41,935 nucleotides of DNA from a virus. A model generated the notes under the pieces. That model was not told where the DNA came from. It saw nothing but the letters and a program-made list of their open reading frames with translations, and did no database searches. Location: IMG/VR virus record IMGVR_UViG_3300025671_000144, positions 1 to 41,935 of that record. One strand, written 5' to 3'. This document shows positions 12,001-41,935 of the stretch, piece by piece; the stretch's first letter is position 1, and each line of letters opens with the position of its first letter. Both the position numbers and the translations under genes were made by a program.

Positions 12001-14310
12001 ATTCTTGACAGAAAATTGAAGGAGGGTCTTATCAATCAAGAAACATATGACATCCTTTCCAAGTATGAATATGCGCCAAGGGTGTTCATGGATGTAATGT
12101 TTGACATCACTGACGGAAATTTCAAGAAAGAGGAGGACAGATTTAGGAAGACGGGTGGTCTTTCTGAGGCTGAATTTAAGAAGCTTGAAGGCGGAAGCAC
12201 AGAAGATTTGTTTACAGACAATGAGTTCCTTCTTCAGATGCTGATAAGTGCTAATGAAGAAAGGGTTTTCTCAAACAGGCTGTTTAAGATATTGGGAAAA
12301 CATGATGCTGATTGGGTAAGCAAGAAAGCTCAGAAAGGGTTTAGGCTTCTTAAATACAAGGAGGAGGGGAAAGTTAAAGGTATTTATGTTAGAAATGACA
12401 TTGCCAATCAAATTGAATTTCCAGATGATGGAATGATTGATAGCAAGGTGTTCAATTTCTTCTCCACATTTTTAGGGACAAAAATCTTGAGGGGTATGGC
12501 TACGGGTTACAACCCATTGTTTGCTATATCAAACATACCTATGGATTTCTTCAACATAGTTATGTTCACAGATGTCTACGACAAGAAGATGAGAGACGGA
12601 AAGCCTCAAAGCAGAAATGTTTTCGCTGCAATGTTTGATTTGGGAACTAGCTTTCTCTCAAACTTCACTGGATTGCAGACTAAAAATAGTGAGACAATGT
12701 CTGTTTTAGAAGAAGCAATTGAAGCGGGGATGGGCATGGATTTCTTGACTAGCCAGGGTCGCATGAAATTCATGGGTAGATCTAGTGGAAGGATTGAAGC
12801 TGGCTTCAAGGGATTCTTCAACGCCTTATCACATTTTTCTGAAACATCTGAACTCGGAATGAGACTTTCTGTGTATCAAAAGGTGAAGGAAGAGTCTATG
12901 AAGCAAGGTATGAGTGAGCAAGAGGCAAGGGTATATGCTGCCTTCAAAGCTCGTGCTACAATTGACTTCTCACAAGGAGGTGTTTATGTTAAAAACTTAG
13001 ACAAGCTTTCCCCATATCTGAATGCATCATTCCAAGGTATGCGTGTTGCCGGAACATACATAGGTAAAAACCCAAAGAAGTTTACCAGTAAGTTTGCTCA
13101 GTCGGGTATTGCTGTCACCATGTTGGCGTTAGCCGCTAAAACCGCTGCTGAAACATTCGGATGGGATGAGGAGGATGAGAAGGCTGTACCCAACTTCCAT
13201 AAGAGAAACTACTTCATCATTCCAACGGGGCTTACTATCGATGGAAACAAGGCTTACATAAAGATAAGGAAAAACCCCACTTTTGCTCCTTTCATTGGAT
13301 TTTGGGAAGGTGTTGCTGACTACGTTCATGCGTCAATGAATGGTGCTTCAGACAAGGAATTGGATGATATGCACACTAAGAGGTACGCATCTGTAATCCA
13401 ACAAGTATTGGATGCAACAGTTGTTGGAGACTTGTTTGTATCGATTGACGATCAGACTGGAGAGGTGAAGGGTAGAATATCTGCCACACAGTACTTACCC
13501 CCAGTGATGAAAGCCATAAGCCAATATGAAAGTAACTATGATTTCTTCAGAGAAAAGAATGTTAGTTACGACAAGCTTTACACCCCTGACATTTCACCAA
13601 GCTTAGAAGGTAAGTTTGACGACAATGTAGAAGACTTTTACAAGGTGGTGGGAGAAGCGTTAGAGCTGAGTCCAAAGAGAGCTAAGAATGCGGCTGAGGT
13701 AGTGGTAACATCTCCATCAACAAACCTACTTGTGGGTGCGTCATATGCCTTCTTAGAGTCAATCATCTCACTTGGACAAGGGGAGGTTAAAGAAGCTGGT
13801 GAGGCAGCCAAGGGGATTCCAAATTCTGCTGTAAAGTCTATGCTCAAGAGGATAGGAGGGGTAGCAGATAAGAGGTACATACCCAAAACCCGGATTAAAG
13901 ATCTTGACGAAGCCATCCAATCCTACAAAGACAATCAGTTTACCATAAGGAAAGAGCTTACCAATATGGTTTATGAGGACAAGGCAAGCAAGAGTGAGGT
14001 GAGGAATTACATAGAGCAGATAGAAGATGCGAAGCTGAAGAAATATGCTGAGGACAAGTACAAGAAGCTTCAAAGGAAAAGCAAGTTTGACGACTTGGTG
14101 ATTCCAGGAAAATCAACTTACTATGATTTAGACGACTACTTGTCAACGAATCCAAAGCTTGCAGCTCAGTATTTGTATGTAACCCAAGGGAGTCTAACTA
14201 ACGCTGAATTGAAAGAAATTAGAGGATACATATCTATGATAAGGGGGTCTCAATCGTTCTCATATCCCCCTGCTTTTATAAAAGAATACAGAAGGCTACA
14301 GACACAATGA
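9076..14310 (+). CDS. Giant internal virion/ejection protein, polyvalent type (ART-like and LPD38-like regions)
   Basis: A 1744-residue protein, the largest in the window. Residues about 300-480 hold Gly/Ala-rich segments able to insert in membranes. Residues about 660-745 read VTVYHRTTREKADEIL, then GIFFSTS and an acidic end, the order of an R-S-E type ADP-ribosyltransferase fold. A Thr/Glu repeat linker spans about 755-795. The region about 1290-1330 has ARATIDFSQGGVYVKNLDKL followed by SPYLNASFQG, matching the LPD38 domain of phage polyvalent proteins. The protein likely enters the cell with the DNA to form a conduit and carry effector activity. No lysozyme or transglycosylase signature was seen. 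Confidence 0.6.
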   Translation: MEDEVYIYEGNEYSRKELEDEYGDRIGEAIEKFGFKKKDETISQDSTEPSTTLSEDIDEEEFSRNRAARDIINSIEKSYDRSENYSNFVKDFGVQNKESVKDFDYNESDFFGLSPADVSIAKRNKILADETLKYGDNIDLYVNTDIYRQSDKINKLYKFASESEEDLINIDEPNKTFTFDIDRFSKVLAKTDKFDKQVKKIEDQERELIESMPDWIDDTVARVRETGRSTMDLGRNFLAYLEPEYVSDSQIKHSFQTIGAKKGVGLTQEQIDKGYTQLLEEGDLEGAYKSFTIDAAGQIPQLALAIGVSAATRNPQMGRKLAARLLGLNAAGAKYAEMYSDPTMSEGMKIFTSAAVGAVEGSLEGLLASDITAGVNLLKRMGAEGVKKNLSTMRGTLAKARNYGLPLAKGVGEEALEEGLASSFEAFVVDHLIRDEEFNPYNIADAAIMGAAMGGGVTSLTLLPSYIGSTKTMKRRAEIAKKIKDKRQQIQSGNLSEQEISMANDQIFKLRKEASVLRNEDADMYKDYSDEDVNEIININRRVSLNRDRAIDSKTEEGKEIINEKIEEDLARKKEIEQNYDSKKEQQVPSTEPEGESPVEAEPDAEASEEKAEADRDVQEDKQQAVEKSKESLSKKLKGDKLLNAQDTVDELADNNAEINDDGTVTVYHRTTREKADEILSKGQMFGLEDGIFFSTSVKGQAEGFGDVVIKMSVPVEMIEIDDVFGNEAHVRIPTKKPNQKVSVKKYMAEEVSKEPTKKTEPTEETTEETAEEATQEATEETEEEATQETTQEKPPKKGKVRSVFAQEKKPLSLGIREGLKKVYDKLFDRQGVVRRLIQNSGNKILEAALSVRAGSSASAKNIFEKANEKIFKGVFGDDFDILNDIIVLRRIISIEKSRPIRIKKLEDMLEKESDEKKIKNLKKKIKDLKEFKHPKDLNQETAQAELDRLRNELDEDKFNDLNERANNFFQATKDILDRKLKEGLINQETYDILSKYEYAPRVFMDVMFDITDGNFKKEEDRFRKTGGLSEAEFKKLEGGSTEDLFTDNEFLLQMLISANEERVFSNRLFKILGKHDADWVSKKAQKGFRLLKYKEEGKVKGIYVRNDIANQIEFPDDGMIDSKVFNFFSTFLGTKILRGMATGYNPLFAISNIPMDFFNIVMFTDVYDKKMRDGKPQSRNVFAAMFDLGTSFLSNFTGLQTKNSETMSVLEEAIEAGMGMDFLTSQGRMKFMGRSSGRIEAGFKGFFNALSHFSETSELGMRLSVYQKVKEESMKQGMSEQEARVYAAFKARATIDFSQGGVYVKNLDKLSPYLNASFQGMRVAGTYIGKNPKKFTSKFAQSGIAVTMLALAAKTAAETFGWDEEDEKAVPNFHKRNYFIIPTGLTIDGNKAYIKIRKNPTFAPFIGFWEGVADYVHASMNGASDKELDDMHTKRYASVIQQVLDATVVGDLFVSIDDQTGEVKGRISATQYLPPVMKAISQYESNYDFFREKNVSYDKLYTPDISPSLEGKFDDNVEDFYKVVGEALELSPKRAKNAAEVVVTSPSTNLLVGASYAFLESIISLGQGEVKEAGEAAKGIPNSAVKSMLKRIGGVADKRYIPKTRIKDLDEAIQSYKDNQFTIRKELTNMVYEDKASKSEVRNYIEQIEDAKLKKYAEDKYKKLQRKSKFDDLVIPGKSTYYDLDDYLSTNPKLAAQYLYVTQGSLTNAELKEIRGYISMIRGSQSFSYPPAFIKEYRRLQTQ

Positions 14311-34017: not shown

Positions 34018-34058
34018 GATTTTTCTTTTTAGGCGTTAGACTTCGGGTTAAAGGTTCG

Positions 34059-34113
34059 TTATTATGAAGGGATTCGAACCCTCGTAATGGCGCACCATAG
34101 CACCTCATAATAA
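34059..34113 (-). ncRNA. Minimal tRNA-like element (acceptor stem + one arm + T-arm)
   Basis: On the minus strand TTATTATG and CATAATAA form an 8-bp acceptor-like stem. Directly next to the 3' strand is a canonical T-arm GAGGG-TTCGAAT-CCCTT. Only 22 bases remain for the rest; they form one 5-bp hairpin, GGTGC-TATGGT-GCGCC. The D-arm is missing and total length is 55 bases, shorter than any normal bacterial tRNA. Pairing of both stems is unlikely by chance. It may be a tRNA mimic, a decayed tRNA gene or an RNA element used by the phage. Confidence 0.5.
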
Positions 34114-34139
34114 AAAAGGGGGTACGGATTCGCACCCCC
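34112..34139 (-). terminator. Strong terminator upstream of the minimal tRNA-like element
   Basis: On the minus strand GGGGGT-(10 bases)-ACCCCC is followed by six T residues. The loop holds GCGAATCC, itself similar to a T-loop, so this may be a converted tRNA 3' end. It would stop leftward transcription coming out of the repeat hub, or attenuate it before the gene at 34017. Confidence 0.7.
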
Positions 34140-34689
34140 TTGGATTTGCCTTTTTATAGATGTATTGCCCTACCTATTCGCTAACGTGATTTCCCTTACT
34201 GAATTTTGTCCGCTCTATGGCGCAGTGAAGGATTCTGACCGCTTGGAAATTCACGCATTGAATTGAATCTCTTTGAAAGATTCCCGCAGTGGGTATTTTC
34301 GTCCGACAAGCTATGGCTATCAATCAGACGTACTTTTCCCCCATCTTTGGGTTTCGATTTTTGACCGATGGGACGAATCAGAACGCACGTTCCTATCGCA
34401 GTCCCATTACTCGGGTTGATTCGCACCCATCCTATGGTGGATGGTATACGCTGCTTACACTAACGCCGATAGCAGACATCGACACGGGTATATATCGTCT
34501 TCCCCGCACCCCGCAGCCAACACATAGGAATGTTATGTCTTCCCATGAACCATGCGCATACTATTACCTTCAGCGCATTCGTTGACCGATTCAGCACTCA
34601 CCTTCTTAAGGGATATGTGCCTTGCTTATATGTGTTGTTCCGTTACTCTTATACGTTCATCATTTTCAACAGTACAAACATCCGACACG
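34140..34689. other. Non-coding stretch with tRNA-like fragments
   Basis: No reading frame here has normal phage codon style or a recognisable product. Short motifs recur: CTATGG at 34213, 34309 and 34432 (also at 34093 on the other strand), and GATTC-type T-loop pieces near 34230, 34418 and 34590. No complete tRNA cloverleaf was found by eye. The stretch may hold decayed tRNA genes or structured RNA. Confidence 0.4.
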
Positions 34690-35068: not shown

Positions 35069-35360
35069 TTGTAGGACATCTCTTACAAAATACTTGGGTG
35101 GGATTGTTGTAGTACTTTTCCTACAAACCACCAACGACAAAAAAATGTAAGAAAATTCCTACACCCAGAAATTTGTAGTATTTTTCCTACACAAATAAAA
35201 TTGTCAGACAATTCCTACAAAAGCTTTCGATGTGAAAATTGTAGGAATATTCCTACGATCTCAGGCTTGTAATACTTTTCCTACAAATCAAAACGCTAAA
35301 AGTTTGTAAGAAAATTCCTACAAAAGCAAGGGCATGGGTTTTGTAATACAATTCCTACAT
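35069..35360 (+). repeat. Array of nine 20-bp palindromes (iteron-like)
   Basis: Nine 20-base units start at 35069, 35107, 35145, 35173, 35201, 35239, 35267, 35304 and 35341. The ideal form is TTGTAGGAATATTCCTACAA (unit at 35239 differs by one base); the right half TTCCTACA is the most conserved and the left half TTGTA varies after five bases. Steps are 38, 38, 28, 28, 38, 28, 37 and 37 bases, that is 28 or about one helical turn more. Spacers of 8 or 17-18 bases differ in sequence. The array lies in the hub between leftward and rightward genes and is a candidate replication origin, operator set or partition site. Confidence 0.85.
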
Positions 35361-35684
35361 CGATTTTTGGGCGGCGGCTAAATATATAATCCCACCCCTT
35401 CACATTTCTCACTCCTTCATATGTTGTAGAAAAACCAAAAGCAAGATTTTGGCTTAAAAAGAGTCTGTACAAAGCCCCAGGGAGTTTGAAAGCTTACAGA
35501 TTCCCCATAAACAAAGAGAATTTACCGCAAAAAAAAGAATATAAGCCCTCCAAATCCTCACTTTGCACCCAATGCGAGCAATACTTTTGAATGATAATCT
35601 TGCGGAGGGGGAATGTAGACCCCTTGCAACACGATAGACACTCGATATGTGGAGGTAATGCTTAGTGCATTCAGATTACTTGGG
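35361..35684. other. Non-coding spacer right of the array
   Basis: No plausible gene was found. It is A/T-rich near the array (AAATATATAAT at about 35380) and holds several A-runs. On the minus strand it would be the first transcribed part from the promoter at 35685-35715. Confidence 0.4.
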
Positions 35685-39400: not shown

Positions 39401-39898
39401 GTGGATGATTTACTCGACATTGGGCAGTCAATTGACCTTTATAGCTTGGCTTCCGAGTGGTCTATTTTTATGGATACTAAAATTCAAGACTATTCATTAC
39501 AATCATTCCAAAACGCAATAACAAACGATAGTTCTAATTCAAGTCCAGACGTACCTATGCGTATAATGTTTAGAGATGACAATAACTTATACTTTACAGT
39601 AAATGGTACAACTACGACAGAAACACTTGCTTCAGCAACACAAAGAAGTTTAATTGGTTGTATCAAAAGAAGTAGTGATGTAGTTATAAGTATCAACGGC
39701 TCATCTACGACTGGCACAAAAGGTTCAATAGATTTTACGAGTGGGTTAGAAAACACAGTTATTGGGAATTCTCCAAATGGCACATCTCGTCCAGCTAAAC
39801 TTAAAACTGCTGAATTAATAATCTACGATTCCGACCAAAGCACCAACCGAACGGACATAGAAAGCAACATAAACAAACACTTCAAAATCTACGAATAA
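36425..39898 (+). CDS. Modular tail fibre / receptor-binding protein with LamG-like domains
   Basis: A 1157-residue protein made of repeated blocks. The helper block AAAYSLRKV + VRRSSDD + LDTTALTTFV occurs at about 55-100 and again at 515-560, with partial copies at 20-40 and 465-500. The block WYDQSGN + Q-rich turn + FDGVDD occurs three times, near 258, 721 and 948, each followed by a concanavalin-like beta sandwich ending in IIYDSDQSxNR. Such lectin-like sandwiches bind glycans, so this is probably the fibre that finds the host. Identical DNA at 36694-36719 and 38072-38097 shows recent duplication. Stretches near 38.1-38.55 kb and 39.4-39.85 kb are more A/T-rich, as if exchanged. Confidence 0.75.
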   Translation: MKLGLGLDVRKASAPAFKGLLDKFTGAVAAYSTRKLTASQPNTLPADYGDGAAAAYSLRKVKASYSGNCIDVRRSSDDTTSSIGFSGNELDTTALTTFVGAQNLIYPSEDFGGASWTKQTGITATSNTSETTDPFGGSGAAKIVSTDATKGFYIGGLIFPTSSDLIRSIYLKGAVGGETVTLKDPSGYGDSTVVTLTTEWQRFTHSTSAGITDAQGIFVDNIPVGTIYAFGAQCNEGTTAATYNKTTTGIGGDGFVTKWYDQSGNENDATQGTDNDQPQIVDAGSTILENGKPAIQFDGVDDYFTGAAKTTINNTAIFAVIKSDSNTQDATFIQNTLDGSNLVALGLGGLGTNNEIGSRLNVGGSTIDNPGDSTFTATDQTLVSFLADNTAAQMFVDGTEETDSVSCRASNLGTAIGARGDGLFPFDGAIQEIILYDSDQSDNRQDIEWNINNHYNIYTDSWDKQSAMEVRRAIDNETTNIGFVGKDLDTTALETFATESSPVLDDYTGAAAAYSLRKVRSAYTGSAVRVRRSSDDELQDIGFDANGDLDTTALTTFVNEDVNTYSSDFSSGIDGLIESRVTASSVDGISDGTTSKDDVLQSVLTSGSNTHYIYKNGTFDLSNTYDVSFEYYIPSVRPDGVTPQTIDGIVVRTGTGSDGAYPFSVLDSWESETIQNWSPSTSNLLLFAAAVGEFIGSIDADGDVYYLKNIVVTQTTADGAVTTWYDQSGNGNDATNSTESEQPLIVDGGTLVEENGKAAIDFDYNSSNNLSASPTDWSFVTSSNTSIFMVMNLNQYNTPRSVLYNISGDEVSSGQGDSLVSMARSNQLRIGYYDKSAGSWTPTPDGFGVGIDGFAAQQNLISSIYNSSGALDSYANNTISGSITSNPEGSITANKFFIGSNSSGTNPMDGNLQEFIIFNSDETSNRTGIEGNIGRYYNIDGFRDVFVTKWYDQSGNFNHAENSTDTQQPQIVDGGSVITEGTTPKAALDFDGVDDLLDIGQSIDLYSLASEWSIFMDTKIQDYSLQSFQNAITNDSSNSSPDVPMRIMFRDDNNLYFTVNGTTTTETLASATQRSLIGCIKRSSDVVISINGSSTTGTKGSIDFTSGLENTVIGNSPNGTSRPAKLKTAELIIYDSDQSTNRTDIESNINKHFKIYE

Positions 39899-40140
39899 TG
39901 AGAACACGCACATACTACATCGGCACAGAGGAAGAGTGCATCGCATACGACCAGAAGGTGACAGCCACCAAGAACTATGACGGGGTGTCAACGAAAAACT
40001 GGGCAAACCCAAAGCCACACCCTACGGACGAATACTTTGCCATCGTAGCCTGTGGGGGTGTAGAGCCTGACGAGGAGAGCAGCCTTCAGTTTGTTGAGGC
40101 ACTCGGAGAGGACTGGTTTGCTACTGAGGAGCTTCCGTAG
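39898..40140 (+). CDS. Small fibre-associated protein
   Basis: An 80-residue protein starting MRTRTYYIGTEEECIAYDQK. It has TATKNYDG, WANPKPHPTDEYFAIVAC and an acidic C-terminus. It follows the fibre by a one-base overlap (TAATG). Small proteins of this form are common right after glycan-binding fibres in Bacteroidetes phages, as far as I remember, and could be fibre tips or folding helpers. Its last 20 bases overlap the convergent gene ending at 40121. Confidence 0.55.
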   Translation: MRTRTYYIGTEEECIAYDQKVTATKNYDGVSTKNWANPKPHPTDEYFAIVACGGVEPDEESSLQFVEALGEDWFATEELP

Positions 40141-40570
40141 CCACTCCGTACTTCCTGTTCAAACTCTGTAGCACGTTGTAGTAGTCCTGCACGAGCTGCC
40201 TCGCCCGTGCCGTTATCATAAACCTACGGTTGCGGAAGTTTTCTTTGAAGAAGTGGCGTTCTTCGTCATCTCCTCTTTCAACGATTTGGATATACTGCTT
40301 CTCAAGGAGGGGTTCAATATACTTCTCCATGTATGAGGTGCGCCTCACCCCTTGTGACATCAGCACCTCCGCTATGTATGGGAGGTAGAAAAACTGTAGG
40401 TCGTAGACAAGGAGAAGGAATGCAAGCTGGTACTTTGTGATGTCATACCTGTCCAGTATTACGTCCTCTGCCAATATTCCACACTTCATGTAGTTGTCCT
40501 TGAGCCAGTATGTCTTCTGGTGGAGGTGTGTTCTCCCCAGCTTGGTTTTGGGTATCCTTTTCTTAGGCAT
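40121..40570 (-). CDS. Winged-helix-like regulator, putative
   Basis: A 149-residue protein, basic at the N-terminus (MPKKRIPKTKLGRTHLHQKT). The centre reads ITKYQLAFLLLVYDLQFFYL and YIAEVLMSQGVRRTSYMEKY, then IEPLLEKQYIQIVERGD and RRFMITARARQLVQDYY. Helices followed by a charged hairpin and a final helix match the winged-helix (MarR/PadR-like) plan. It is the only minus-strand gene in the rightward fibre block and its -7 element faces that of the next plus-strand gene. It may control appendage genes. Family placement is tentative. Confidence 0.5.
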   Translation of the reverse strand: MPKKRIPKTKLGRTHLHQKTYWLKDNYMKCGILAEDVILDRYDITKYQLAFLLLVYDLQFFYLPYIAEVLMSQGVRRTSYMEKYIEPLLEKQYIQIVERGDDEERHFFKENFRNRRFMITARARQLVQDYYNVLQSLNRKYGVATEAPQ

Positions 40571-40578
40571 AGATAGAT

Positions 40579-40603
40579 TAAATTTGCACTTACCACAAAT
40601 TTA
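40579..40603. promoter_or_regulatory. Face-to-face -7 elements in an inverted repeat
   Basis: TAAATTTG at 40579-40586 (plus) and TAAATTTG at 40603-40596 (minus) form a perfect 8-bp inverted pair with a 9-base centre. Each is followed by a start codon on its own strand at the right distance: ATG at 40609 on plus (22 bases on) and 40570 on minus (25 bases on). The two transcripts would start toward each other inside 39 bases. Neither has TTG 20 bases upstream. The palindrome could also be an operator for the regulator at 40121. Confidence 0.6.
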
Positions 40604-40608
40604 GTGAA

Positions 40609-41673
40609 ATGGCAACATTAGCTGGAACAAAAGTAAAGGATAAGTACGGAAACCTCCTACAAGTAAACGGAGGTGTGGACGGCACTCTCAAAACAGTTGA
40701 GGGTGGTGATGGTGCTTCTACAGCCTTGAAACTTTCCTCTACAGAAGTGGAGCTTCCTTCCACAGGCACTAAGTTTAGTGGTGCGCCAGCAGGGTCTTCC
40801 ACCGAGCTTACGATGCTTATGCTGAATGGCAGTAATCAGGTGGTGAGACGGGAGCTTGACTCATCTCTCTCTGGAGACATAAACTTTGACTCAGGCTGGC
40901 AAGACTTTCAGATAAACGCAAGCACAGGGACGGCAAGCACATACTACGGACTGAATTACGCCACTGCTGCTGGCATCAACAACGACCTCCAGTATAGGGT
41001 GATAAACAGAACTGTTCACCTGAAGGGCGACCTTTACATACCTCTTGATGCAGACGGCACGTCTGGAACAGGAGCTTTAGCCACCACCGTTGCTGACAAT
41101 CAACTATACAACAGGGGTACGGTACACACTGCAAGTGGATGGACAGCATCTGGGGGCGAGGTGGTGAGTCCTCATATATTTAACGAAGACACCCTCTCCC
41201 TGAACATGACCGAGCAGGACTTGAGGATGTGGATTCCATACCAAAGGACAATAACCGAAACCAGTGACGCAACGGGTGACACCATCGGTTACTGTACATT
41301 CGGGTGCATCACCATAGACTCAGACTTCAAGCTCAGGCTAAGGAGCTTCTACTACTATTCCTCTGGAGATGCTCACGTTATAAACCCCATAGTTGAGCTT
41401 CTGCCGAGATTTAGGAGTGGTGCGCCATTTTTAAGCTACGACAACTATTATACAGATGCTTCTGGTGGTTCTGATGAGAGGACAGTGGAGGTTCACGATG
41501 TAAATGCCGCCATCAACTTCGATGGAAGGGGCGTGAGTGATGCAACGCACACTGGGGCTGGAAATGGTGTGAAGGGATGGGGTGGACTCCGTGTCACTCT
41601 TGACGGACTGCAATTTCAATTAGATTCATCAAACACGATTGATGCGATAAGCAGTGTGCTTTCGTCTCAATAA
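40609..41673 (+). CDS. Second appendage / fibre protein
   Basis: A 354-residue beta-rich protein starting MATLAGTKVKDKYGNLLQVN, with GTLKTVEGGDGASTALKLSS. This opening, a stretch ending in a short strand and D-G-x-x-T-x-L-x-L-S, is used by several phage head and tail fibres as an attachment segment. The rest is strands with Tyr-rich loops (FYYYSSGDAHVINPIVELLP). It is likely trimeric. It starts downstream of the -7 element at 40579. Confidence 0.5.
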   Translation: MATLAGTKVKDKYGNLLQVNGGVDGTLKTVEGGDGASTALKLSSTEVELPSTGTKFSGAPAGSSTELTMLMLNGSNQVVRRELDSSLSGDINFDSGWQDFQINASTGTASTYYGLNYATAAGINNDLQYRVINRTVHLKGDLYIPLDADGTSGTGALATTVADNQLYNRGTVHTASGWTASGGEVVSPHIFNEDTLSLNMTEQDLRMWIPYQRTITETSDATGDTIGYCTFGCITIDSDFKLRLRSFYYYSSGDAHVINPIVELLPRFRSGAPFLSYDNYYTDASGGSDERTVEVHDVNAAINFDGRGVSDATHTGAGNGVKGWGGLRVTLDGLQFQLDSSNTIDAISSVLSSQ

Positions 41674-41688
41674 ATTAAATTCAAATAC

Positions 41689-41935
41689 ATGGACGAAGAA
41701 ACAGTAAAGGGGATACAAACCCACATGAGGGCTATTGAGGAGATAGTAAGCGAGAAATGCCCAGAGGCTCAGTATATGTTCACCGTCCAGATGGACAGTG
41801 AAAAGCAGGACGAGTCGATGGACGTATTCTACGGAGTGAGAGCAGACACCACATCCGACCTCATCGAAATGTTTGAGAACATCTTCGAGCTTGTGTGTGC
41901 AGAAAATCCAAACCCAGAGAAGTTCAAGAGCTTCC
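41689..41935 (+). CDS. Unknown protein, 3' end outside the window
   Basis: An ATG at 41689 opens a frame that runs off the window after 82 codons (MDEETVKGIQTHMRAIEEIV ... YMFTVQMDSEKQDESMDVFYG). It is acidic and helical with two central strands. It follows the second appendage gene by 15 bases. No family recognised. Confidence 0.55.
   Translation, partial: MDEETVKGIQTHMRAIEEIVSEKCPEAQYMFTVQMDSEKQDESMDVFYGVRADTTSDLIEMFENIFELVCAENPNPEKFKSF

Follow-up and report, generated by a model that had tools for sequence, protein, structure and literature searches.

Facing promoters between a predicted MarR-fold regulator gene and a phage packaging operon: a probable divergent control point in marine Bacteroidota phages

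Introduction

What is controlled at a junction where two promoters face each other, one aimed at a single opposite-strand gene and the other at structural genes? The question arises near the right end of the IMG/VR record IMGVR_UViG_3300025671_000144, a linear virus fragment, of which we analysed positions 1 to 41,935 (41,935 nucleotides, hereafter the window). To our knowledge, late-gene timing in Bacteroidota phages has hardly been studied. A search of open-licence papers returned none on MarR-like late regulators in flavobacterial phages.

Results

Two facing boxes in a 38-bp intergenic region

The whole distance between the ATGs of the regulator gene and of the fibre-like gene is 38 bp. 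The window reads TAAATTTG-CACTTACCA-CAAATTTA at 40579-40603: two TAAATTTG boxes on opposite strands, 9 nt apart, form a perfect 8-bp inverted repeat, and each is aimed at the start codon on the far side of the other, just as the original prediction had described (Table 1). A single TAAATTTG is not rare, with 4 in the window for 2.4 expected by chance. The paired pattern is unique in the window, even allowing three mismatches; the 25-bp element has one copy in the record, and the arm length seen in the window's lineage is reached in 0.5% of shuffles.

Bacteroidota sigma-A recognizes a -7 box, TAHHTTTG, located at -12 to -5 (PMC6847099, PMC9723704), and the -33 element is weak in Flavobacterium, including F. 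johnsoniae (PMC6847099). Both boxes match the -7 consensus. The forward box has no -33 TTTG at about 17-23 nt on its 5' side; the reverse box has a TTTG with a 24-nt spacer, outside that range. Similar boxes lie at similar distances before other operon starts of the window (229, 35744, 17392 and 25589), and are therefore the ordinary promoter type of this phage. Near the site, E. coli-type sigma-70 promoters and terminators are no more frequent than chance, and no structured RNA was matched in Rfam.

Counted from either box, the first base of both transcripts is predicted to be the same, which would give leaders of 18 nt rightward and 21 nt leftward and would place each box within the first transcribed bases of the opposite unit. 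From such a shared start the transcripts would move apart. The word "collision", used when the site was first noticed, is thus misplaced: the conflict would be one of occupancy, without any head-on encounter, RNA polymerase being predicted to occupy only one of the two promoters at a time.

Table 1 Features at the junction, in window coordinates
Feature	Position	Strand	Remarks
80-aa ORF	39898..40140	+	Tail-to-tail overlap with the 3' end of the regulator gene; from the ORF list
Winged-helix protein of 149 aa with a modelled MarR fold; probably regulates the packaging operon and itself	40121..40570	-	Members at 287 loci
-7 box TAAATTTG	40579..40586	+	Reads right into the fibre gene and packaging operon; 22 nt 5' of ATG 40609; TAHHTTTG here in 21/23 lineages
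Perfect 8-9-8 inverted repeat formed by both boxes	40579..40603		Identical in three close relatives; palindromy not retained in other lineages
Predicted transcription start, both directions (dyad centre)	40591		Inferred from the -7 box at -12..-5 in Flavobacterium
-7 box TAAATTTG	40596..40603	-	Reads left into the regulator gene; 25 nt 5' of ATG 40570; kept in 13/23 lineages
Fibre-like protein of 354 aa; its gene opens the operon in the window phage	40609..41673	+	N-terminus conserved, rest variable; ORF and relatives
Second gene of the operon (95 aa in L004)	41689..41934	+	Cut by the window end; relatives continue with 77-aa, GroES-like, TerS-like, TerL and portal genes

The divergent neighbour is a packaging operon

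In wider searches, members of the 149-aa family turned up at 287 loci (156 unique). Grouping the loci that have a divergent neighbour at 70% amino-acid identity gave 26 lineages. In all 26, the same head/packaging operon diverges from the regulator gene. Its genes encode, in order, a protein of 77 aa, one that is GroES-like (Cpn10 scoring above the Pfam cut-off), a 98-aa TerS-like protein, so named by position only, and the terminase large subunit, present in 24 of the 26 lineages and unmatched in the DNA available for the other two. Ten lineages, that of the window among them, have a fibre-like gene inserted ahead of this series; the promoter pair does not differ between operons with and without this insertion. 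We therefore assign the control region to the head/packaging operon.

In the close relative L002, whose regulator protein is identical, the fibre gene keeps only ~73% DNA identity after its N-terminus, which we read as variation of the fibre tip between phages by sequence exchange. For L009, a related contig, the relatives of its terminase belong to phages of Flavobacterium, Cellulophaga and Tenacibaculum; this kinship makes a marine Bacteroidota host most likely.

Two non-coding regions elsewhere in the window were recorded. At 35069-35364, eight imperfect 24-nt palindrome-like repeats of the TTGTAGGAATATTCCTACAA type, spaced 28-66 nt, sit between the replication genes (minus strand) and the structural genes (plus strand); they are a candidate origin or operator array. 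At 34020-34650, several words resemble tRNA T-arms in reverse-complement sense (e.g. ggattcgaaccc); ARAGORN found no tRNA there, and Rfam gave no match.

The facing boxes are conserved, the palindrome is not

Boxes were counted in the 23 lineages with a gap of at least 25 nt between the regulator and the divergent gene; these are not fully independent of one another, so the counts are not probabilities. The forward box occurs in 21 of the 23, for 0.8 in shuffles. The facing box occurs in 13 (shuffle mean 0.5, maximum 4), and in every one of these both boxes stand together, face to face (0.02 in shuffles). This lends support to the earlier proposal of two mutually interfering promoters. Ten lineages lack the strict facing box; with a relaxed TANNTTT, the total reaches 19 of 23, for 5.4 in shuffles (maximum 13). 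Among lineages, the forward box hardly changes; the facing one is weaker and varies more.

A scan of 357 other gene starts from these loci served as a control: 53 carry a forward box and 7 (2%) a reverse box. The facing box is therefore special to the regulator/operon junction, and its origin in general leader composition was rejected.

The spacing between the boxes is 2, 3, 7, 8, 9 or 10 nt in the family, which places the predicted starts of the two directions within ~7 bp of each other, and on the same base in the window. The two middle letters of the boxes show no co-variation between arms, and the palindrome sum over all lineages hardly exceeds that of shuffles (125 versus 112, sd 4.8). 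Varying spacing, absent co-variation and a frequency of perfect palindromes close to that in shuffles together argue that selection acts on two facing promoters. The perfect palindrome of the window would then largely be a by-product of its two boxes. Comparison among relatives thus retains the facing pair, but not the palindrome as the natural operator it had been taken for. In the window's own lineage, it may possibly serve as an operator.

The close relatives L002-L004 keep the promoter region, with the spacer identical too. In L003, all 38 of the 38 intergenic positions are identical, next to adjoining coding DNA at 88-92%. L114 and L171 have lost most of the gap, of which about 10 nt at most are left. 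In at least 11 of 13 sequences, their forward box lies within the regulator gene, 61-68 nt upstream of the ATG, a location where it is rare among lineages whose gap is normal. Its retention after loss of the gap argues that the box is functional.

Other arrangements were seen in single lineages. In that of L020 (3471-4001) and L036 (887-1417), the regulator follows a 176-aa gene of its own strand; the forward box is relocated upstream of this two-gene unit. In L044 and L290 (regulator starts 4001 and 3001), different palindromes stand by the forward box, upstream of the regulator: GTATATT-TGT-AATATAC and TTAAGTAC-ATAA-GTACTTAA. These are possibly lineage-specific operators.

The regulator is modelled with a MarR fold

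The AlphaFold model of the regulator, based on an alignment of 82 family members, has a mean pLDDT of 77, with 53 residues at 90 or above. Its top 50 fold matches in the PDB are nearly all MarR-family proteins (probability 0.98-1.00, TM up to 0.61, best E 2.7e-3). According to this model, the protein is of the MarR-type winged-helix fold, which bears out the winged helix suspected from the letters. Basic residues are conserved in two places: 77, 78 and 83 where the recognition helix begins, and 109, 114, 116 and 124 in the wing.

At the sequence level, the 149-aa protein matched no Pfam or PHROG family meaningfully and no PDB entry, and the MarR Pfam profile matched none of the 82 members. No isolate phage was matched by tblastn with the members from the window, L043, L044 and L121. 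Host genome contigs contained no homologue in two scans, the second of which used one conserved peptide and was not exhaustive. The gene is on the same strand as the replication genes.

Comparing L004 (4649-5098) with the window (40121-40570), we observed that the core of the regulator gene has been exchanged (62-72% DNA identity) between nearly identical ends, and that the intergenic DNA is unchanged at 37 of 38 positions. The pattern is that expected of an exchange of regulator alleles.

A remote homologue is UOF82529.1 of the uncultured phage MW202828 (L010; hhalign 93.5%, E 2e-7), annotated "repressor protein", a function known from that annotation only. Like the window's gene, it diverges from a structural operon that reaches terminase and portal. 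There, in contrast, the two -7 boxes are back to back, within a palindrome with 9-bp arms. This palindrome, TGTCACAAA-N10-TTTGTGACA, at 13184-13229 between the "repressor protein" and an HNH gene, is a better candidate operator than any in the window's lineage.

Discussion

We propose that the head/packaging operon is controlled from the 38 bp between the two divergent genes, where two promoters of the host sigma-A type would face each other: the forward one would serve the fibre gene, the small genes and those of the GroES-like and TerS-like proteins, terminase and portal; the facing one, the single opposite-strand gene of the MarR-fold regulator. Their mutual exclusion would sharpen the choice between regulator and packaging proteins. 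The regulator most likely binds in or beside the short intergenic region and would control both directions, repressing the packaging operon early in infection and limiting its own level, until the operon is released later in infection. The promoter pair is well supported by comparison, from which its conservation, the identity of the operon and the fold are also drawn; the binding of the regulator, the sign of the regulation and its timing we infer. On balance, an autoregulated divergent control point of the packaging operon, with a repressing regulator, is probably what these marine Bacteroidota phages carry. The ten lineages without a strict facing box, the missing Pfam and PHROG matches and the fold scores (best E 2.7e-3, mean pLDDT 77) weigh against it.

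Two observations count against a locally acting regulator. No operator motif is common to the lineages and the box spacing varies, unlike what the operator of one conserved dimer would show; and the constancy of the L004 intergenic DNA beside an exchanged core is unexpected if that core reads this DNA. The missing common operator and the L004 case would suit mutual exclusion acting by itself, where the stronger forward promoter dominates, the weak facing one lets the regulator trickle, and the protein acts elsewhere, on another operator or a host gene. The near-invariant forward box and the weaker, more variable facing box would suit it as well. However, to be the conserved divergent neighbour of the same operon in 26 of 26 lineages is the usual mark of a local regulator, and the spacer is also identical in close relatives. 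We consider exclusion without local regulation rather unlikely.

It is less likely still that the regulator is an activator, made first to turn on the forward promoter, its own promoter then being shut by occlusion. A forward box without a -33 TTTG at the usual spacing is what an activator-dependent promoter might look like, and the regulator shares its strand with replication genes. Yet MarR proteins are mostly repressors, and almost every lineage has a forward box that matches TAHHTTTG perfectly. Moreover, the -33 element is weak in Flavobacterium generally (PMC6847099).

That the forward box is the sole promoter, the facing one being a by-product of an AT-rich leader and the regulator being expressed from elsewhere, would agree with the ten of 23 lineages without a strict facing box. 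This is quite improbable given 13 lineages with that box against 0.5 expected, its 2% frequency at other starts, and the relaxed box in most of the remaining lineages (19 of 23 in total). Finally, the switch between appendages that was first imagined, prompted by a fibre-like first gene and by another large structural gene on the other side of the regulator, can hardly be right: the fibre gene is present in only ten of the 26 lineages that share the control region, and the two flanking structural genes are on one strand, so the pair does not choose between them.

The favoured reading, a repressing, autoregulated control point, has several known counterparts. MarR, OhrR and MexR are MarR-family regulators encoded divergently from their target operons. 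The resemblance lies in a winged-helix protein of ~140-150 aa and in the divergent orientation of a small regulator gene and the operon beside it; the window's family differs by the missing Pfam MarR match, the packaging operon as neighbour and a palindromic operator that is not conserved. In E. coli, the divergent promoters of tetR/tetA and of bioA/bioB overlap and share an operator. Overlapping divergent promoters are also reported for the conjugation switch of plasmid pLS20 (PMC4207663). All three resemble the present site in that regulator and target promoters overlap and one bound protein or polymerase affects both; here, by contrast, the boxes are of the Bacteroidota sigma-A type, the targets are phage late genes and the operator is only putative.

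In P2/186-type switches, two phage promoters likewise stand face to face, but 40-60 bp apart and with convergent transcripts (PMC7498355); in our family, the boxes are 2-10 bp apart and the transcripts would diverge from nearly one base. In those switches, a small DNA-binding protein represses and promoter interference is part of the control; repression is what we would expect here too. They decide between lysis and lysogeny, whereas the partner operon here is that of packaging, and their Apl/Cox proteins are not MarR proteins, unlike the modelled fold of the window's regulator. The principle is shared with known overlapping or facing promoters; geometry, target and protein family differ.

We would suggest, tentatively, that this is an undescribed lineage-wide device of uncultured marine Bacteroidota phages, in which host promoters that exclude each other give a MarR-fold regulator and the packaging operon a common start: an either/or timer of late genes that requires no dedicated phage polymerase or sigma factor. 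As the promoter pair and its regulator show conservation over 26 lineages (287 loci) and the target operon is known, they offer a concrete and cheap test system, reduced to a 38-bp fragment and one 149-aa protein. They may also serve as a marker for the packaging operon in genomes of uncultured marine phages, and they give a likely role to a protein family that is now without a name.
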